Under the pieces are notes generated by a model. That model did not search any database. It worked only from the letters and a program-made list of their open reading frames with translations, and was not told the DNA's origin. Below, piece by piece: positions 22,684 through 55,105 of a stretch of 64,000 nt of DNA (the stretch's first letter is position 1; each line of letters opens with the position of its first letter). Where the stretch lies: assembly GCF_910592395.1 (NCBI RefSeq), contig NC_088317.1, positions 13,578,001 to 13,642,000 of the forward strand, read 5' to 3'. A program made the translations under genes and the position numbers. Source of the stretch: Lineus longissimus (Eukaryota; Nemertea; Pilidiophora; Heteronemertea; Lineidae).

Positions 22684-22698
22684 TTAAAGGTTAAATGC
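22684..22698 (+). repeat. Left TTAA plus terminal inverted repeat of the two-gene transposon
   Basis: TTAAAGGTTAAATGC pairs with TTAAAGGTCAAATGC on the minus strand at 29545-29559, 14 of 15 bases identical. Confidence 0.7.
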
Positions 22699-22903
22699 CA
22701 AAGTTAGGCCTAATCTTAATCAAAGTACATCAGGATAACCTTTTGTTACATTTAGATGTCAAATGTAGTAAATTTATTTGCATAAATATCGCATGGAATA
22801 AAGAAATTCAAATAAACCGCCCTGTCTCAGCGTGAATTTGCTTCGGCAAAGTTCGTATTTCGTTCGGAAACTCTCGCGGTTTTGGGGAATTCCAAATGAG
22901 GAG

Positions 22904-22911
22904 TGACGTCA
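22904..22911. promoter_or_regulatory. CRE-type palindrome upstream of the THAP gene
   Basis: TGACGTCA, the full CREB/ATF palindrome, lies 184 bp before the THAP gene ATG and within the 21-bp inverted block shared with the other end. A CREB-type role is an inference from the motif. Confidence 0.4.
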
Positions 22912-23094
22912 CTAGTGCTGTCATTGTTAGACTGATCCCACTGCCTGCATACACAAACGCCATGCTGTAGATGCCTGCGCAAGACAGGAGACCAGTTTTG
23001 TTTTCATTCATCTGACAGCTGATTCTACTTTCTGGTTGCGTTCACGCCGTTCCTACCATGTAAAACCAATTATTTTACATGTTCTAAAGCAAAA

Positions 23095-26000
23095 ATGGTT
23101 TACTGCGTCGCACCAAACTGCAGCAGTGATTCAACGAAGGTGTTGAAAGTAGATGGGGTCGGTTATTACAATTTTCCTCGCGACAAGAAGGCCCGAAAAG
23201 TATGGGTAAGACGCATGCATCGTCCGTCTTCTTGGGTCCCGTCTCTCGGTGCGAGGGTATGTTCGAAGCACTTCGTTGCCGGAGATTACCTGCTGGACCC
23301 AGCCATATGCCGTGCGATAGGATTTGACCCTAAAAAACGCCTGCTGAAGCCAGGTGCCTTCCCTACACTCTTCAGTCATGGTGAAGGCGATGCCATGGAT
23401 GGTACGCCTACGACCAGTGCGCCGCGGTCAGCTGTGCAGAAGAGGGCACATCAGCAGGTGATTATTATTTATTATGAAATCAGTATAGTAGGTATGAAAT
23501 TATACCCCATGGCCATAGGCCTAGGCTAGGAATACCTCCATCTCGAGTGCATGACCATGGGGTAGGCATTGTGAAGTGTAGGATGTGGTGTTGCTGGGGC
23601 CTGAGGACCTTTTAAGACTACAACTTGATAATTTTCATAATTGATACTGCACGACTGCACCTACTAGGCTACCTTCAGCTGTAGGAGCAAGTCAAATACA
23701 AAAGTCCTACTCCTATTAGTCAATTACGATAGGCCTTCTATTTAAAATATTTGTTTCTCATTTCGTAGGCTGTAGCAGAGGCGGTAGCGGGATACAACGT
23801 GTTGTATGGAGAGGAGGCGGAGGAGGCAGCTGAGCAGGATGATGGTTTTTTGATGGCTGATGAAGGCCGATTTGAGGAGGTTGGCAATCACCTGATAGAG
23901 GATGCAGTACTGCCACAGAGTTTAGACGATTTGGAGGTTTTGCCACAAGTATGTTCAATCATAACCCAGCCCCATGTGTCATAAGCTTACTATTAACTGA
24001 CTTCAGGGTGTGGCTCTACAAAAACTGGTTATATTGGGTGATCATATTTACATAGATAAATGTCCCGAGCAGTGTAGACTAATAAATCAGAGGATGGATT
24101 AATCCCACAATCTTGTAATAAAAATTAGCTGCATTATTAATGTAGTGAAAGTTAATGTAAACAACATCCCCGGAACAATAGCCTCAATTCTATTTCTTAT
24201 CTTTGCAGGAACACCCTGAAACCTTTGCCATTGGGACACAAGTTGGCTCCTCAGTCTCCATGCGGTTTGCCAAGGCTGTCCAGGTCAATATTGTCACTGG
24301 GTCTCGGAACAAAGGTTCACAGACAACCTCCTGCACCGGGGATATTGGCTGTCAGGCAGAACCAGAAGTCCGAGAAATTGCCATTCAGACAGATCTGTTT
24401 GACATTGATGTGCCAGTTTTCCAAGGTAACCCCAAACCTGAAAATTATGTTGATACTAGTAGCAACCCGACAAGGTGTCAGACAGTTTGGGTTTTACTAT
24501 CTAACACAATTTTGGTTAGTGCCTGGCAATACGACAGGTACCAACAGGCTGGTACCCGATAAGTCACAGTTTGGTGCCAGACAATGTCTTTGACCACCCC
24601 AATATTTTCAGGCTTGAAACCAAGTGATGAAGACATGGAGGATGAAGAGGTGCACTTTCCAAGTCAGGAAACGATGAAGACTGATGACAGTGACGATGAA
24701 GACTGGGAGCCATGTGAAGATGATTATTGTCAAGAATTTGATGACTCGCTCCTTGATGATGAAAATGTGTAAGTGTTTGTTGTAGCTTTCTTGAGAAATT
24801 GATTCTTTAAAACAATTGAATTGTATCAGAGTGAATGAATAGAATGATAGTCATAAAAGTACCGGTATGGCAGTTTCTGGGACCTGTTATTAGTGTTAAC
24901 ACTAATAAAACTTTACTTTTTTCATGAAGGACTCACTAATGATGCTCTACAGTGAGTTTATAAACTGATAAAAAACAATCATTGTCAAATCTTTAACCAT
25001 AATTATTTACTATTTCAGATCCGGCAAACATTATGATTTCGACAATGAGTATGACCAGCCCTCCCCTCAATATGAGAGAAAATTCATTGTCTTTGAATCA
25101 AGCTTGAGGCTTCTGTTCATGTTTTGTCAAGTTTGCAGGGCACCATGTCGAGTCGCACTCCGTACACTTGGCACAGCTGTGATGGTGATGGCGATTTGTG
25201 AAAATCAACATCAACAGGAATGGACATCACAACCATTTAAAGGACAGCTTCCCATTGGAAATTTGCTTTTGGCTGCAGGTAGGCTACATACGTATGCTGC
25301 ATGATTCTTAAAACATTAGTCGGGTCAATATACGAAAAAACATGGAACAAATTGCAACAAATGATTTTTTCGATGTTTTCTATGCTATTGAGATATGGAG
25401 AATAAAAAATCAAAAATAGGACCACCGGAAATACCAAAAAAAAGGGTAAATTCATAAATCCTGAAAGAAAGCCAAACCAGTATTATGATTTCTCATTAAA
25501 TTGTTTCAGGAATTCTATATTCTGGTTCAAGTCCAGTAAGAGGACTCAATATCCTGAAAAACATTGGTGTGGCAGTGATAAGCCGAAGGACATTCTACAC
25601 TATACAAGGCCTCTACCTCATACCATCAGTGTTCGCAGTCTGGCAAAGGAAGCAAGACAGTATGTTTAAGGAGCGAAAGAGGAAACAACTGTCCTTGTCT
25701 GGAGATGCGAGGTGTTGCTCGCCAGGCCACACTGCCAAATATGGGAGCTACAGTTTGATGGATGAGTCAGCCGGTAAGGTGCTGGATGTAAGCCTTGTAC
25801 AGGTACGTTAGTAATAGTGCATTGCAATGTCAACATGACAAACCTTGCCCTTGTGTCAAGTTAAACGAAGTTCTGGAACAAATCAGAAGTCAATATTCCA
25901 TCAAAATGGATTGCTGACTTCCCTAATGAAATTGATTGTTCACTGTCAGTGTTAACTTTACACTTCACTTACAATTTTATAGTGCCATTCATCCTCATGC

Positions 26001-27746
26001 AGATAGCTTCCCCACATTGATCAGATCCTTCTCTTTATCCCAATAGTTATTACCAGCAATAGGTTTAAAAACATGAATAACATGGTTTATTGGTTACTTA
26101 TTTTTCAGTCAAATGAAGTGAAAAATTCTTACTGGATGGAACTCGAGGGTTTGAAACGTAGCATGGCACTACTTGTTACCGAGAAGAAATTGGCAATTGC
26201 AGAGATGGTCACAGATCGGCATTCACAAATCAAAAAGTATCTGAGAGACAAATGGCCTGGAGTACAACACTGGTTTGATTGCTGGCATATCGCGAAAGGT
26301 GTGTTATTGCTCATTTTAACATAAACAAGGCAAAAAAACAACTCGTCCGTCAAGTATCTTTGCCTTTTTGAATTTAGCCAATGAAAGACATTGTAGGCAC
26401 TGGTCAAAAGTCAAGTGGGTTTCTCATAAATTGGAACATAATGTTTCATTCTAAATTCATTACACATGATATATACATGTACATGTACATGTTTTTCAGG
26501 GGTAAAAAAGAAAATGGACAATATTGCCAAGAAGTACAAACTTTGCAGGATACTCGCAAAATGGTCCCAATCAGTGTCCAACCATATCTTCTGGTGTGCT
26601 GCCTCAAGTAATGGGAATGGTGACTTGGTTGAAGCAAAGTGGCTCTCCATTCTAAACCATGTTGCCGACGTACACGATGGGCATGGGGATTTGTACCCAA
26701 AATGTCTTCATGGTCCTCTAGAAGACAGAGAATGGATCAAGAAAGGTTCGTTTAAAGTTACGTTTTAAAAGGAACTTGCAAATGCCATAAAGCCCATGCT
26801 ATGAATGCAATTTGTCTTGACAAGTAAGGAGTGCCCTCAATCAAAAGAAAAACAGCTAGTCATTTGGCCCTGTTAATTCCTTGTTCCTTATTACTTAAAC
26901 CAGTATTACTCTTTCAGGTAGCAAGGCCCACAAGGAACTTACGCTGATTCTCACTCAAAAGATATTGCTCAAGGACATCAGAAAGGTTTCACCAGGAGTA
27001 CAGACTTCATCTCTTGAGTCGTATCACAAAATTGTTGGTTATTTCGCTCCCAAATCCCGCCATTTCTTCTATGAGCCAATGAAAGCAAGGTATGATAGAC
27101 TACAATGTATTCTCAGGGGTCATTACTAAATCACGAAAAAAATTTCATGCAATGCTTTGAGTGAGTGCTATCAAAGCCCACTTTTCCTTATTCATGATGC
27201 AACTGAACTTTGTTCTTGCACTCTACTTGGACTATAAGGCGTGAGGCGAGTAAAACATTGATTGAAAGCATTGACCAGTCATGCCAGTATTACAAATTCT
27301 CTTTACAGGTTACTGCTCGCCACACTCCACTTTAATGAAAATTCAAATCGGAAACAGCGTATGGGAAAAGATGAACAGCCGCAGTGGTCGATTTCATACC
27401 CCAAGGGGAGAGGAGGAGCTGCAGTAGCAAAAGAGGTCAAAATTGAATCAACATATGGTAGGTATAACGGCCAGCATCGTTACTTTAGTGCTAGCACTGC
27501 AAGAAACAAGAAGAAACAAGATTACTTGTATTAATACTTCCCTTTATGTTTTCAGACTATGTACAGCTAATTCTGGAGGACCTGCTGAAGCGGAGAGATG
27601 ACCTGCCATCTTACAAATTGGCAAGAGATGCAAAGGACAAGTACCAAGTGACTCATCCTATTCCAGGTCCAGTGTGCTCAAAGTACGACAAGCAGGACAA
27701 GATGAAAGTTGTAGAAGAAACAAAAACGAGGTTTAACAAACTGTAG
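23095..27746 (+). CDS. THAP-domain transposase-like protein, 11 exons, intact
   Basis: Exons: 23095-23457, 23769-23948, 24209-24425, 24612-24768, 25019-25278, 25510-25802, 26109-26298, 26500-26745, 26918-27089, 27309-27457, 27556-27746. All have GT-AG borders and consistent phase, giving 805 aa. Residues 1-95 are a THAP zinc finger: CVAPNC, the conserved W and P, VCSKHF (C2CH) and an AVPTIF-like box, GAFPTLF. An acidic linker (about 150-310) follows, then a Cys-rich segment CQVCRAPC with ENQHQQEW-SQP. The C-terminal half looks like an RNase H-fold transposase: GDARCCSPGH (D458), TDRH (D526), HWFDCWHIAKG, and HFNEN (E703) form a candidate DDE triad. Proteins of this layout are multicopy in fish and invertebrates. 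Role inferred: binds element ends through THAP and catalyses cut-and-paste. A domesticated host gene is the alternative. Confidence 0.85.
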
Positions 27747-27806
27747 AGTTCATTCATAGCACCATCAGAGTTCACTATCACAGATCAATTGAACGGTCAC
27801 ACCAAA

Positions 27807-29286
27807 TCAATTGAACGTAGGATACTTGAATCCTGTGTACCCGTCATTGTCCGGAGCAGGCCAAGCAGCACGTATCTTGTCCCGAGCACAAACAGGGAGC
27901 GGCAAACGGTTCCTTCTCCCCAACCTCTTCCAAACCCAACGGACAAGGTTCCTATAGGCCACGTATCGATATAACCTGAAATTGTCGGGAAGAAAACAAT
28001 GTTTGTACATTTAATTGACAGTTTTTTTTAGATTTATTGAAAACTTGTAATATTATTACTAAATACATGTAGATACATTTTATTATATCTATTTTCTATA
28101 TTTCTAGTCTTCAAAGGGAGAAAAAAATCTCATTTCTGAATTGATATTGCCTTTTCTTGTCTTCAATTATACAGCGATGGAGGTGGTCATCATTACTTAC
28201 TTGTGAATGGGCTGGTCATCGCCTATTTGTCCCTGCTCTTCGATGTAGTGATACATCGACATTTCCAGCACCCATCTATCAAGACAGGTGCTGGAAAAAC
28301 CTGGGTGTTGCGTGATGCACTCTACTTTCAGCTCATCCTTCTTGGCCTGGACTGGTGAATAGTCTGAGCAGCACAAGGATTCCCTCCCCTTCTCTTGTGG
28401 AGTGCAGACACCACAATGACACCTACAAATACAAGTATGATATAAATGTTATTGTTATACAGCAGTGATGATATTTCGATAGCCATTGCCATCAATGAAT
28501 CAGGGCCCAGGCCAAGGGTAGGCCAAATTTGAGTGAGAGGCAGGCCCCTGGAGCTCAGCTCAGTAAGATTAAGCATTGTTTCAATCAATCAATTAATGTA
28601 GTATTGTCGAAGGCTTTCGCCTTAAGTTGTTACGGTGAGAATAAACTGTTGTCTTTACGCGTGTGTAGTATTTCACTATTTGGTGTGGTATTGGTAATGC
28701 TCCGCAATGGAAGAGTCTCAGTATAGTAATAATCCAAGTTATTAGGCCTAGAGTTCACTACATTCGAGTAGGCCTACTACCAAACCCTGAGGCTTAGTAT
28801 TCCGAGATCCTACTTACTATAAAATAACGATGTGGAATGAACTCACTCAACTCAAGATACGTTGTGGTTTCGACATATTCGAGGTGAAAAACGCCAATTG
28901 TTTACTGACAACACTCGATCCGTGAACGATGGAGCCCTATGTAGAGATGTACATGAATACATGCACATGATGACATGGCTCATATCAGCATAGGCCCCCT
29001 ATAATGTCCAGCTGATGCCGCGCCTATACACATGGCATGCACAGTGCACTGCCACTGCACTTGGAACTCACCAATTGATATTTCCGATGCGATCAAGTCG
29101 CTCATCCTCCATCTCCCCATCATCACCTTCGCCCGAATCAGAACAAGAATCTGAATCGTCTCTCGCACTCTCCACTACTGGCTCGTACATGTAGGGTTGA
29201 ATCACACCATTGCCTTCATCAACAACCAAATCGTCATCAAACAAATCTCCCGCACAATCTTCGCTCGCCATGCTTGCAGCCGCCAT
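27807..29286 (-). CDS. P2RX7_C (P2X7 ballast-type) zinc-binding domain protein, 3 exons
   Basis: Exons in transcription order: 29286-29072, 28422-28201, 27975-27807, in phase, 201 aa. Residues 1-71 are acidic and disordered with IQPYMYEP, typical for stand-alone members of this family. Residues 72-198 match the cytoplasmic C-terminal domain of P2X7: CHCGVC, a CC pair, ECITQHPGF, RWVLE, YRYVAYRNLVRW, LPVCARDKIR and the closing YTGFK. In P2X7 these cysteines form a zinc-binding ballast fold; there is no channel domain here. The ATG at 29286 (AAAATGG) was chosen; MASEDC at 29271 is an alternative, and an upstream in-frame ATG lies at 29343 within the shared inverted block. The stop lies 60 bp from the THAP gene's stop, so the two transcripts probably overlap. 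Function unknown; possibly an accessory protein of the transposon. Confidence 0.85.
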
Positions 29287-29331
29287 TTTTACTTGCGTAG
29301 TGGTCAATGATCGTGGCTTTGACAGCACTGG

Positions 29332-29339
29332 TGACGTCA
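29332..29339. promoter_or_regulatory. CRE-type palindrome upstream of the P2RX7_C gene
   Basis: A second TGACGTCA inside GGTGACGTCACC, 46 bp before the chosen ATG of the minus-strand gene. It mirrors the site at 22904 in position and orientation relative to the element end. Confidence 0.4.
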
Positions 29340-29544
29340 CCAATGTGAACCTAGCGGCGAATAGCGTAACTACACATCTGGCGGTCTTTTCAAAAGCGCC
29401 TTCAAAAACGAGCTCGCAGAGGACTGAACAAATAGCACTTATTTCACAAAAAAATCACTATTTTTTGAATTCCTTCCGGTTTATTATGTTTTTTTAAGAT
29501 AGCATATTATGAAAATTCACCACAAATACAGGTTAAATAGCTCA

Positions 29545-29559
29545 GCATTTGACCTTTAA
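29545..29559 (-). repeat. Right TTAA plus terminal inverted repeat of the two-gene transposon
   Basis: Partner of 22684-22698. Confidence 0.7.
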
Positions 29560-33397: not shown

Positions 33398-34658
33398 GAC
33401 TTGGAACTTGGTACATATGTAGCGCTATGATTGTTATGAAACAGCCCTCACCATTTCATTAAAAAACAATTAACTAACTTGAAATTAAGTCTGCCAGAAA
33501 TTGAAAATGAGCATGCCGGTAATTATTTGCGAGGTGGACCTGGTTTACACGAACAGTACACATCTGTTTGTTCAGTGTCTCTGGCATATTACTTGAATAT
33601 CACTGCCTAAATTATCCAATGACATAAATCTTATTTGGCCTAACACTAACTCCCCCTGCAATGCGAAGGGTTTTTTCTTACTCGTTAATCGCTAAATTTT
33701 GTGATGAGCAATAAAACGATATATCTTGTCACGTTTGGACCGCTATTGGCGCTAATACAGTCTAGGTTTGCGATAAATTTGTCCCAGGCTGCGGTTGATA
33801 AGGTGACTAATTATTGTTGTCGTTCGTTGTGATAATCATGCCAGCCCAGGTTGCTGCAAAATGAAGTCTGACTTGTGGAGCATTTTACTACCAGTATTGA
33901 AAAAGAGACAATTTTGACCAAGGAACAATTGACTGAGCAGTGATATCGGGGTCTGACAAGAGATTTTGAGGGCAAGACAAAACTTGTTTTTAGGGCAGAT
34001 AATTTTGTCTTCTGGCACCAACCAGACAGAAGGACACCAAGGCAATAACTCGACATTTTGAACTATTTAAAATACTGTGTTGCAAAAGAAATTGGCGACA
34101 ATTTGATGAAATACTGTACATTTCATGAATGAACCAAGTGACAAGCTGTTTGTGTCCATGTCGAGACTTTGATAAAGCTTTTTACGGGTGAGGACAGTGG
34201 CCCTGGCCATTTTTGATATTGAAATATCACAGGCATAACAGGTGGCTATGCTAATCTTCTGAGATGATGCAGGAATAGTTGAATACTTGATAGACCGCAG
34301 TAATCGGTGGTGTTGGTGTGTCATGTACATGTACAGCCACAGCAAGACTCGGCCCTGGTTGTCAGTGACTCTGCTTTGAGCATGACATAATCAGGCAGTG
34401 AGAATGTGATGAATTGTTTTTTACTTGTATACGATTGGATATCACTCAGTGAGCTATGGATTTTGGATCATGGATAAGTTCAGACCGCTGCATATTGTCA
34501 AATTGTTGTTGTGAAATTCATTATTTTCAACTGCTTCAGCTTGGATAATATCACTAGGGGAAACATCTTTTTTTTAAAGTTCATAAAGACATCCCTTAAA
34601 TGTCTCAAAATTCTGTGGTATTTAGCCTGCTCTAAATTACCAGTCCTCTACATGTAGA
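33398..34658. other. Spacer, no gene seen
   Basis: AT-rich with short unsupported frames on the minus strand. No repeat recognised. Confidence 0.35.
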
Positions 34659-34683
34659 CGTGTACATGTATGTTGCAGACACC

Positions 34684-36540
34684 ATGGGGCAAGTGTTGAT
34701 ATCAAGTCGTCTGAGACCACAGACTAAACAGGGAGTTATTCATCATGTACCAGAAGAATCGCCTCCAGAGGAATCTTCATCAGCTCTTTCTGTGTCTGAT
34801 AGTCAAAATGGTCTGCCAGAGTTCTCTGGCCCAGACCAGGCTGACGATTGTTCTTTGAGTGTAGAGGATGTAGGCTCTGAGTATGGCGGCGAAATTCCTG
34901 ATGGTTTTGAAACACAACCTCCGGATGCATTGGCAGATGAGTGTGGACCAGAACAGGAGGAAAGGATGTACGGTGCGATGTCTTATTTTGATGCAGAGGG
35001 TTTTTATCGAGACTTTGGCCTGAATCGTGAAATATCCCAACCCGAGACCCCAAGTAACAGTGCATCAAATGAACAGGTGGATGGTGACGTGTGTCATGGG
35101 TTAAGTGTACCTGTGCTTAACAGCAGTCAGTCTCGGGGGCAGTTTAATAACAGTAGTAGCCCCCCTGAAATTTGTACTGATGTGCAGCAACATCTTCATG
35201 GTTACAACGCAGACAATGGTGTTAGCACTCTCTACAGAAGGTCAATTCAGGAGCCTTGTGGTCACGATAGTCCAAATGGACCTGGTTACAGTGCAGATGA
35301 TGGTGTTAGCTCCCTCTACAGAAGGTCAATTCAGGTGCCTTATGATGACAATAGTCCAAATGGACCTGGTTACAGTGCAGATGATGGTGTTGGCTCCCTC
35401 TACGGAAGGTCAATTCAGGTGCCTTATGATGACAATAGTCCAAATGGACCTGGTTACAGCGCAGATGATGGTGTTGGCTCCCTCTACGGAAGGTCAATTC
35501 AGGTGCCTTATGATGACAATAGTCCAAATGGGCCTGGTTACAGCACAGATGATGGTGTTAGCTCCCTCTACGGAAAGTCAATTCAGGTGCCTTATGATGA
35601 CAATAGTCCAAATGGGCCTGGTTGCAGCACAGATGCTGGTGTTAGCTCCCTCTACGGAAAGTCAATTCAGGTGCCTTATGATGACAATAGTCCAAACATG
35701 CCAAATGGACCTGGTTACAGCGCAGATGCTGGTGTTGGTTCCCTCTACGGAAGGTCAATTCAGGTGCCTTATGATAATGATAGTCCAAATGGACCTGGTT
35801 ACAGTGCAGATGATGGTGTTAGCTCCCTCTACAGAATGTCAATTCAGGTGCCTTATGATAACGATAGTCCAAACATGCCAAATGGACCTGGTTACAGCGC
35901 AGATGATGGTGTTAGCTCCCTCTACAGAAGGTCAATTCAGGTGCCTTATGATGACAATAGTCCAAATGGACCTGGTTACAGCGCAGATGGTGGTGTTAGC
36001 TCCCTCTACAGAAGGTCAATTCAGGTGCCTTATGATGACAATAGTCCAAACATGCCAAATGGACCTGGTTATAGCGCAGATGATGGTGTTGGCTCCCTCT
36101 ACGGAAGGTCAATTCAGGTGCCTTATGATAATGATAGTCCAAATGGACCTGGTTACAGCGCAGATGATGGTGTTAGCTCCCTCTACAGAAGGTCAATTCA
36201 GGTCCCTTATGATAACGATAGTCCAAATGGACCTGGTTACAGCACAGATGATGGTGTTAGCTCTCTCTACGGAAGGTCAATTCAGGTGCCTTATGATGAC
36301 AATAGTCCAAATGGACCTGGTTACAGCGCAGATGATGGTGTTGGCAGTCTCTACAGAATGTCAATGCAGGAGCCTTATGGTCATGATAATCCAAATCAAC
36401 CTTTTTACTCAAAATCTGCCCATCACGGAATGAAGGCTAATCCAGTTTCGCGGACAGATTCCGTGGTTGAACCACACTTGAGGCGAGCTGATGCGGTCTA
36501 TGTGATTGGTGCATGTTTACCACCTGAGAAATGCAAGTAA
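34684..36540 (+). CDS. Acidic Ser-rich protein with 13 tandem 28-residue repeats
   Basis: ATG at 34684 has an ideal context (ACACCATGG) right after a splice-acceptor-like TGTTGCAG. An earlier in-frame ATG at 34660 is a weaker choice. It encodes 618 aa. Residues 1-170 are acidic, Ser/Pro-rich and probably disordered. About 172-570 are tandem repeats of the type GPGYSADDGVSSLYRRSIQ plus VPYDDNSPN; some carry an extra MPN. The tail is about 50 residues ending PPEKCK. No known domain, signal peptide or membrane segment. The stop TAA overlaps a possible weak donor (CAA|GTAATG), so this may be an internal exon, but it does not join in phase to the exon at 37494. Length, codon-periodic repeat and initiation context support coding; function unknown. 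Confidence 0.6.
   Translation: MGQVLISSRLRPQTKQGVIHHVPEESPPEESSSALSVSDSQNGLPEFSGPDQADDCSLSVEDVGSEYGGEIPDGFETQPPDALADECGPEQEERMYGAMSYFDAEGFYRDFGLNREISQPETPSNSASNEQVDGDVCHGLSVPVLNSSQSRGQFNNSSSPPEICTDVQQHLHGYNADNGVSTLYRRSIQEPCGHDSPNGPGYSADDGVSSLYRRSIQVPYDDNSPNGPGYSADDGVGSLYGRSIQVPYDDNSPNGPGYSADDGVGSLYGRSIQVPYDDNSPNGPGYSTDDGVSSLYGKSIQVPYDDNSPNGPGCSTDAGVSSLYGKSIQVPYDDNSPNMPNGPGYSADAGVGSLYGRSIQVPYDNDSPNGPGYSADDGVSSLYRMSIQVPYDNDSPNMPNGPGYSADDGVSSLYRRSIQVPYDDNSPNGPGYSADGGVSSLYRRSIQVPYDDNSPNMPNGPGYSADDGVGSLYGRSIQVPYDNDSPNGPGYSADDGVSSLYRRSIQVPYDNDSPNGPGYSTDDGVSSLYGRSIQVPYDDNSPNGPGYSADDGVGSLYRMSMQEPYGHDNPNQPFYSKSAHHGMKANPVSRTDSVVEPHLRRADAVYVIGACLPPEKCK
35278..36393 (+). repeat. 84-bp coding minisatellite (13 units, some 93 bp)
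   Basis: Units begin GGACCTGGTTACAG and end AATAGTCCAAAT. Three carry an extra 9 bp (encoding MPN). Variant positions are shared between non-adjacent units (R/G and S/G in SLYRR/SLYGR, DDN/NDS), pointing to unequal exchange. As units are multiples of three, a second plus-strand frame (35105-36433) is open throughout as a by-product. Confidence 0.95.
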
Positions 36541-52862: not shown

Positions 52863-53207
52863 TAGTCCGGGAGCCAAAGGCTGATATTTACCTGAACCTG
52901 GAAATGCCGGATGAAGTTTTTTTCTTTGCTGTTTTCACTAGTCTAGGGGATGCTCATCATGATTCAAGAGGGTGCCCGGTGATATCTCTTGAGCAATTTT
53001 CAAAATATGCAAATTAGGTCCGCCATTACTGAAATTCCGTTAATTGACTATATCTCAATTGATATGCATCATACCATAACGAAATTGGTGTCTATACCTA
53101 GGTTATCAGGGTCTACGAACACAATAAGCCCATCATTGCAGTAATCAAACGTTTTGAACGCATGCAAATTGTGCAAGTGAGGTCGGCCATTACCAAATTT
53201 CAGTTTT

Positions 53208-55105
53208 TTGGCAATATCGCGGGAAATATGCAGTATAATCTCATCAAATAAGTGTCCATTCCTAGGTTATCAGGGTCTATCCAACCTGGACGAGATGGAG
53301 GAGGGTGAGACATCACACATCAGTCAGCTCTACCACAAAGAAGAGGGAAAAGCTCGAATTCAATCTGATGGCAAAGACAGGACTGGAATCCGTCAAAAGT
53401 TGGACGCGTACATCGATCCATTAGACCCGAAAGAACATCCCGATGGAATAGTGAACATTGCCAGTGGAAGGGTGGCTATACCTGCAGTGAATGTGCACGA
53501 TGCAGTGTCCATTGGAGAAACGATGCTTGCAAACTTTGAGAAGGACTTGCCCAGTGGCTTTTATAACACCATATCAAAAAAGGTTACAACTATGGCCGTA
53601 GTGGACAAGTCTAAACAGGTTGCCGACACAAAAGCATATGATCTCAATGCAATATATGCTAGGGTTATTGCCTTGCTGGCAAGTGACCGTGACTTACACA
53701 TAAAGGATGTTCTTTCGTATGAACTTGCTCCAGTGCCAACCTCAATGTTCAAGAAAGACGGGATGCGTATTGCAAAAGGCAAATCAGCACTGAAGAACTC
53801 CCTTCAAGTGGAGGTGTCCAGCAGGAATGCCGGAGATGCAGATGTAACCGTTATAGATGGCTCAGCGCTTTTATGGACAATTCATTGGCCGGCAGATGGT
53901 ATTGTGGAAGATTATGTCACCAACGTTAAAAAGCGAGTTGCTTCATACCTGGTGAACAGTGATGTCTATCTGATCTTTGATAGATACGATGACTACAGTA
54001 TAAAATCTGTCACAAGGGATGGCAGGGAGACTGGTGTCAGCCGTACACATCGCTTGTTGTTGACAACAAGACTACCTGCCCAGAAGGTTATCTTGTCAAA
54101 TGTTGAAAACAAAAAACAGTTGATTAAAATCATCTGTAGTGATCTTACTGCAGACAGATTGTTTCACAATCGGAGCACTGAGAAACACAAGTTAGTTGTC
54201 ACTGGAGAAGACCCGTGCCCCACTGAAATCAAGAAGGATGAAATCAGCATTAGATATGATCTGGAGACATATCACGAAGAAGCCGATATCATTATTGTGC
54301 AACAAGCGTTGAAGTGCGCAAGTGAAGCCAGGAGACTTGCAGTGGTAGCAGACGACACAGATGTGTTTGTTCTTCTGGTCCACCACTATGAGGAAGCAAA
54401 ACTGAAGCTACCAATGAGGATGGAATCACCTAGTAAAGGCAGGGCAGTACAACGGACAGTAGAAAAGCATCGCGACATCGTGAAGCAGCTCCTTCCTGCA
54501 CATGCTATTTCCGGTTGTGACACTGTGGCATGTTGTTTTGGAGTAGGAAAGGGTTCTGTTGTCAAATCCCTGAGGGCTGGATATAAGCTGAACACCATTG
54601 GGATTGTAGATGCATCCTTTACTGACGTCATGGACCAAGCTAGCGCTTTCATGTCTGCCTGTTATGGTGTGAAGGACACAAAGGACATGTCACAAACCAG
54701 GCTATATGTACGGGGGAAAAAGAATGGCAAGGGGCATACATCCACACCAAACCTGTCAACGCTTCCACCTACAAGAGAGGCATTTAAAGAGAATGTGAAG
54801 AGAGCCCACTATCAAGCAATCCTGTGGCGAACCCTTGATACAAATGATTTACCCGAACTAAACCCAGAGGACTTCGGATGGAAGAAGGATACCAGCAACA
54901 CAAGGCCAGCAACAAGTCATTAACACCAATTGCCATTCCAGATGATGTTAAACTCGCCCCTGATTACATAATGGAGATGATCCGTTGTGGTTGTAAGAGC
55001 AAGAACCCTTGTAGTTCAAAAAGGTGTAGTTGCGTGAACAGTCATGGCTCGGAGTGCACTATCTTTTGTGCATGTTACCCCATAGTATGCGCTAGAGTAA
55101 AGTAG
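53208..55105 (+). pseudogene. PIN-like/CXC-domain protein, 5'-truncated with frameshift
   Basis: The frame 53208-54923 (571 codons) starts inside the element's arm; recognisable protein begins near GLSNLDEMEE (53274). It belongs to a multicopy invertebrate and fish family with the motifs TVIDGSALLWTIHWP, YLIFDRYDDYSIKS, SRTHRL, HKLVVTGEDPCP, HEEADIIIVQQAL, VVADDTDVFVLL, PAHAISGCDTVACCFGVGKG and LPPTREAF. The Asp-rich VDGS/DTDVF pattern suggests a PIN/FEN-like nuclease fold (inference). A tesmin-type CXC segment follows (CGCKSKNPCSSKRCSC and FCACYP), but in another frame (to 55105): a one-base loss near 54885, after GW, breaks the fusion. The N-terminal half of the family is missing. Role unknown; probably transposon-associated. 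Confidence 0.65.

Follow-up and report, generated by a model that had tools for sequence, protein, structure and literature searches.

How does a gene for the zinc domain of an ion channel come to lie tail to tail with a transposase gene? This question is raised by positions 22684-29559 of a 64-kb stretch of the genome of the nemertean Lineus longissimus (contig C10, 13578001-13642000; 64,000 nucleotides, hereafter the window, whose own numbering is used below), in which a transposase gene with THAP and DDE motifs faces a gene for the ballast-type zinc domain of the P2X7 receptor (P2RX7_C). We show that these two convergent genes are carried by a discrete, multi-copy unit lying between TTAA duplications. 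Judging from its ends, its protein motifs and its second gene, which is of the KolX type, the unit is very probably (about 0.93) an autonomous Kol0-type Kolobok DNA transposon that has been active in recent times. Its features are as follows.

22684..29559, + strand: whole proposed transposon including both TTAA, 6876 bp; copies have the same ends, and an empty site lies next to copy L022
22684..22698, + strand: left terminus, TTAA + AGGTTAAATGC, from end comparison across copies
29545..29559, - strand: right terminus, TTAA + AGGTCAAATGC (inverted), from end comparison across copies
22903..22923, + strand: left-hand member of an inverted pair of 21-bp blocks, containing TGACGTCA, ahead of the transposase gene
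29320..29340, - strand: right-hand member of this pair of 21-bp blocks, ahead of the P2RX7_C gene
23095..27746, + strand: THAP + DDE transposase gene, 11 exons, 805 amino acids, from splice sites, open frame and THAP match
23095-23457, 23769-23948, 24209-24425, 24612-24768, 25019-25278, 25510-25802, + strand: transposase exons 1-6
26109-26298, 26500-26745, 26918-27089, 27309-27457, 27556-27746, + strand: transposase exons 7-11
27807..29286, - strand: KolX-type gene (P2RX7_C / ballast domain), 201 amino acids; exons 29286-29072, 28422-28201, 27975-27807

Copies, ends and empty site

The genome searched comprises 391,118,348 bases in 30 contigs. With the left 237 bp of the unit as query, 32 matches were obtained at 31 places, two of them being parts of one place; 25 of the 32 begin at query base 1 and extend over more than 200 bases at 94-100% identity. 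The 30 places other than the window were fetched for comparison, and TTAA stands at the expected first base in 27 of them; it is altered in L024, and the matches in L037 and L038 begin further in. TTAA is present on both sides in 15 of the 18 copies tallied for both ends (not in L011, L024 and L038). The other 12 were left out of this tally: in 11 the fetched stretch contains no right end, and the right-hand alignment of L033 stops three bases before the edge. Since the left 237 bp recurs across the genome and copies have both ends in common, the element is more than a chance arrangement. The left flanks (200 bp) show no mutual similarity. Six fetched copies contain the complete element, in one alignment (L013, L014, L016, L022) or in two (L017, L021). 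Noncoding divergence from the window amounts to 0.9-1.2% in these six, 0.2-0.3% in L009 and L010, and 4.7-4.9% in L032 and L038, the oldest long copies; by these values most copies are young.

Copy L022 is inserted in a short minisatellite, and its joined flanks equal the neighbouring repeat unit at 61 of 62 bases. This unit, a repeat unit and not the other allele, reads ACACCATTGC-TTAA-AGCCAGCACTG with a single TTAA and shows the form of the unoccupied site. The initial annotation had called for a search for further copies with these ends and for an empty site with a single TTAA, and both were obtained: other copies stop at the same bases, and the empty form lies beside L022.

The left end reads TTAA-AGGTTAAATGC from 22684, and its inverse, GCATTTGACCT-TTAA, closes the unit on the right at 29559. 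The matching 11-bp termini announced earlier are borne out together with the TTAA, with the correction that the 11-bp inverted match (15 bp counting TTAA) contains one mismatch. The AG...CT termini adjoining TTAA follow the 5'-RR...YY-3' pattern of Kolobok. The longest direct repeat shown is 29 nt, whereas KolobokP has long terminal direct repeats of about 450 or 660 bp. Further inside, the 21-bp blocks GTGACGTCACTAGTGCTGTCA and GTGACGTCACCAGTGCTGTCA are inverted with 20 of 21 bases alike. They hold the palindromic TGACGTCA, which we take to be a site resembling the cAMP response element (CRE), 171 bp upstream of the transposase start and 33 bp upstream of the KolX start. That these blocks lie exactly 215 bp inside each end is correct for the window copy, where both begin 219 bp from the outer edge (215 past TTAA), and incorrect for others: the right-hand TGACGTCA, kept in 15 of 18 copies, ends 205-220 bp from the right edge (220 in the window). 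A strict 215-bp symmetry as a functional constraint was rejected because these distances vary among the other copies.

The two genes

All 10 introns of the transposase gene are GT-AG. Pfam THAP matches residues 4-93 (E=8.2e-14), and CVAPNC at residue 4, FPRD at 27, KVWV at 35, CSKHF at 56 and AFPTLF at 88 provide the C2CH, P-W-F and AVPTIF-box residues of this motif. By motif reading (GDAR, TDRH, DCWH, LESYH), the DDE triad with C/DxxH is placed at D458, D526, D547xxH550 and E669. A candidate zinc finger between C/DxxH and E (H582, C586, C622, H624), assigned by eye, has counterparts in L039, a divergent locus of the same genome. In either protein of the window element there is no Pfam match, at E up to 1, to a nuclease or helicase domain as in KolobokE, KolobokH, KolobokD or KolobokP, nor to the P-element transposase domain. 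P elements duplicate 8 bp at the target.

In KolX, P2RX7_C (PF20478) covers residues 66-196 (Pfam E=1.8e-15), and the best match to P2X7 structures reaches 3.3e-8. Residues C73, C75, C78, C89, C90, C107 and C175 align with P2X7 cysteines. By eye, R149 and R181 correspond to R546 and R578, two arginines described as conserved in the available text of PMC7016195. In viral contigs, KolX yielded 8 pattern matches and the transposase core 3, none of them a relative.

L039 is one divergent transposase/KolX pair seen in sequence: its transposase core is 37% identical to that of the window and its KolX 30%, with all seven cysteines kept, and TGACGTCA lies some 110 bp ahead of the KolX frame used. THAP was not found in the fetched L039 stretch, which covers the 5' part incompletely. 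A structure of the L039 transposase, folded alone, had a mean predicted local distance difference test score (pLDDT) of 32 and was not used. As a separate observation, a QPY-x-(Y/F)-EPVV stretch N-terminal to the zinc domain occurs at residues 30-38 of the window KolX and at the L039 KolX N-terminus.

Convergent pairing across transposase families

The genome was searched with the P2RX7_C profile (118 exon-level matches, best 150 of 187 candidates scored), the window KolX (165 matches, of which 150 were used; best 150 of 544), the window transposase (139 matches, best 108 of 537) and the L039 transposase (117 matches, best 104 of 495). Exon-wise matches on one strand were merged within 5 kb for transposases and 3 kb for P2RX7_C. 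The two P2RX7_C searches together give at least 147 loci, and the two transposase queries at least 107: 19 of the window family, 70 divergent and 18 of a distant lineage. Divergent loci, L039 among them, lie outside the window family at more than 25% identity to either query; distant loci, at 25% or less, served as the contrast group.

Among the matches listed, to which all linkage counts here refer, P2RX7_C lies within 5 kb of 18 of 19 window-family, 31 of 70 divergent and 0 of 18 distant transposase loci, and in every one of these 49 pairs it is downstream on the opposite strand, i.e. convergent. Within 10 kb, 38 of the 70 divergent loci are linked (36 convergently) versus 0 of 18 distant ones (Fisher p=8e-6). 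The 31 divergent loci linked at 5 kb compare with a mean of 0.34 and a maximum of 3 in 1000 random placements of the P2RX7_C loci, in which contigs 2, 7 and 18 were entered with roughly guessed extents, and with a mean of 1.1 and a maximum of 6 in 1000 runs with these loci shifted by 30-500 kb. Absence from the matches does not equal absence from the genome: the P2RX7_C profile matched at 0 of 19 window-family loci, the window KolX query at 18.

On these results, the initial description of two intact convergent genes stands: a spliced 805-residue THAP plus candidate DDE gene on the + strand, and a three-exon, 201-residue stand-alone ballast-type domain with its cysteines in register on the - strand, their 3' ends facing. 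The Kolobok assignment, first suggested from TTAA and THAP, gains from the TTAA duplication, RR...YY termini, THAP domain and DDE with DxxH found together. The proposal that the ballast domain spreads with a transposon agrees with the recurrence of linked convergent pairs, and the search for the two genes together elsewhere found them, in the same arrangement, in divergent families of this genome.

It is quite possible that some transposase families lack KolX and that KolX also occurs without a transposase. The unpartnered P2RX7_C loci include the window-family deletion copies L015, L024, L029, L032 and L038, and several of the unpartnered transposase loci form a set with 42-48% identity. The 18 loci of the distant lineage, at 23-25% identity (e.g. 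C1:8427962, C7:9275239), comprise equal-scoring copies with open frames of up to 630 amino acids. Twelve KolX loci of near-equal score (99.1-99.2 bits), 63% like that of the window, have no transposase within 10 kb among the matches listed; they are perhaps a transposase-deleted family spreading with KolX.

KolX loci, first six: C2:13982702, C9:10487615, C13:14351813, C12:10119125, C6:7980355, C4:12104892
KolX loci, last six: C6:11289994, C15:2952407, C4:18233252, C13:9512453, C7:14633608, C3:8905293

Gene integrity among copies

Exon inspection covered 21 of the 30 places fetched. The window copy has both genes open, as do L014, L016 and L022 (3 of these 21). In L013, KolX is open and the transposase frameshifted; in L010, L024, L027 and L032, KolX is open, three residues shorter in L032, and transposase exons are missing. 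A broken or interrupted KolX is found in L011, L012, L017, L019, L021, L025 and L038; in L011, L012 and L019 the cause is a small number of additional bases where the first splice joins. KolX is only partly visible in L009, L015, L020, L023, L026 and L029, in some through the end of the stretch. L011 and L019, at different sites, share one transposase deletion, which joins element positions 2587 and 4135 with identical filler bases, so this shortened form has multiplied.

Of the KolX variants found in at least two copies, 10 fall on codon position 3 (202 sites) and 5 on the first two positions (404 sites; Fisher p=0.0099), which is modest evidence, from related copies, that the KolX protein mattered during the spread of the family.

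Proposed mechanism and alternatives

In the mechanism that we favor, the transposase would bind the ends via its THAP domain and cut and paste the element into TTAA, and the CRE-like block near each end would drive both genes inward. KolX would act as a nuclear accessory protein of transposition, helping to assemble, target or regulate the transposase complex, and by analogy might stand beside the transposase as a RAG2-like protein stands beside a RAG1-like one.

Several observations weigh against this picture. No Pfam transposase family exceeds its cut-off in the window transposase (Mutator, PF20700, E=0.0013, is below cut-off), the L039 transposase matches a Mutator-like Pfam family (5.7e-7) and not Kolobok, and the second catalytic D is E in that otherwise open protein. 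Among the matches listed, no P2RX7_C lies within 10 kb of 32 of the 70 divergent transposase loci, and no transposase within 10 kb of 92 of the 147 P2RX7_C loci. Transposase variants in at least two copies (11 of 806 at codon position 3, 13 of 1612 at positions 1 and 2) give p=0.20, which is not significant, and since the copies are related, common variants are not independent. The 64-kb window holds 7 occurrences of TGACGTCA, five of them outside the element, so its presence near L039 could be chance.

An ordinary duplicated host locus, i.e. a segmental duplication, would share with a transposon its multi-copy status only; the exact TTAA borders, unrelated left flanks and empty site led us to reject this scarcely credible reading. 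We likewise reject as very improbable that KolX is a mere passenger of the window family with no part in transposition, a role to which the copies with KolX broken or cut, and the short copies L028, L033 and L034 without either full gene, could point. The same fixed, convergent arrangement is seen next to transposases that share just 32-57% identity with that of the window, the KolX variants show the codon-3 bias, and the available text of PMC9587614 reports KolX for the entire Kol0 group. A less remote, still unlikely proposal is that KolX itself drives the spread, acting in cis, or helping or steering a transposase that comes from another source, and retained through selection on KolX itself. 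It arises from the KolX-open copies without transposase exons, the multiplied L011/L019 form and the 12 transposase-less KolX loci, and if true would fit the repeated domestication of KolX.

For the 21-bp block, we prefer a shared promoter element to an internal transposase-binding repeat, a feature of P elements. The latter remains a tentative but sizeable possibility here: the blocks are inverted and almost equidistant from both ends, and 27 of the 30 fetched places retain the TGACGTCA core on their left side. It accords less well with the drift of the right-hand distance to 205 bp, with the normal ends of L028 and L034, which have no right block, and with the recurrence, possibly by chance, of the palindromic CRE-like core upstream of KolX in L039, whose transposase is so divergent. 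A promoter element would serve both genes of the proposed Kol0 transposon.

Relation to known systems

According to the available text of Kojima and Bao (2022; PMC9587614), Kol0 Kolobok families encode two proteins, the second of which, KolX, adopts the ballast fold of P2X7 and has seven conserved cysteines; in their account a P2X4-like gene fused with KolX to give P2X7, and nanor is probably a domesticated KolX. The Kol0 elements described there (represented by Kolobok-1_XT) resemble ours in TTAA duplication, RR...YY ends, DDE with C/DxxH and KolX, and that text yielded no defining difference. The finding in the window is real and was correctly interpreted, and its main claim, the P2X7 tail domain as a Kolobok second gene and the origin of P2X7, has been in print since 2022; the hint in the initial annotation about the P2X7 C-terminal domain matches that derivation. 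The words 'THAP', 'convergent' and 'amphioxus' have 0 occurrences in the main text of PMC9587614, and neither the orientation of the genes nor counts of their linkage were found in its available text. Among the papers listed by the searches (25 of 16,832 in one of them), it is the only one to treat KolX, and its available text describes no functional test. What is added here is the counted convergent pairing, the CRE-like block upstream of both genes, and copies without transposase exons in which KolX is open. This amounts to an independent, counted confirmation, from a single chromosome-scale genome, that one group of transposons usually carries the P2X7 tail domain as its second gene, and the near-identical copies with both genes open offer a practical element for learning KolX function.

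The Xenopus Kolobok (XKol; PMC6004289, available text) is like the window element in TTAA, AG termini and a THAP + DDE transposase, its H2CH motif having a candidate counterpart in the window transposase; 'P2X', 'ORF2' and 'second gene' have 0 occurrences in its main text. RAG-like transposons (ProtoRAG; PMC7204232, available text) likewise carry two convergent genes, for a transposase and an accessory protein, and are the source of vertebrate immune genes; they differ in their RAG1/Transib transposase, 5-bp target duplication and CAC termini. Vertebrate P2X7 and nanor (Rump 2020, PMC7016195) have the same zinc domain as KolX but are host genes, P2X7 being fused to an ion channel of the vertebrate immune system. 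PMC13228809, on sea cucumber THAP genes, has 0 occurrences of P2X and Kolobok.

The available text of PMC7016195 places the ballast domain across animals with one or few (<10) genes per species and no large families; the at least 147 P2RX7_C loci of this one genome contradict that view. 'Transpos' has 0 occurrences in this text, which, around Figures 5-6, also describes a protein of Ixodes whose N-terminal domain is printed 'TAHP' (read here as THAP) and whose C-terminal domain is of the ballast type, and two markers linked to ballast genes across phyla. This fusion and these linked markers could reflect a transposon and not ancestral synteny.

Other open frames in the window

Two further open frames lie in the window. 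The one at 53181-54923 (580 amino acids) has no Pfam match at E up to 0.1. The other, at 34636-36540 (634 amino acids), matches no Pfam family over its cut-off and consists mostly of an 84-bp (28-residue) tandem repeat, with 13.7 units at 35199-36379.

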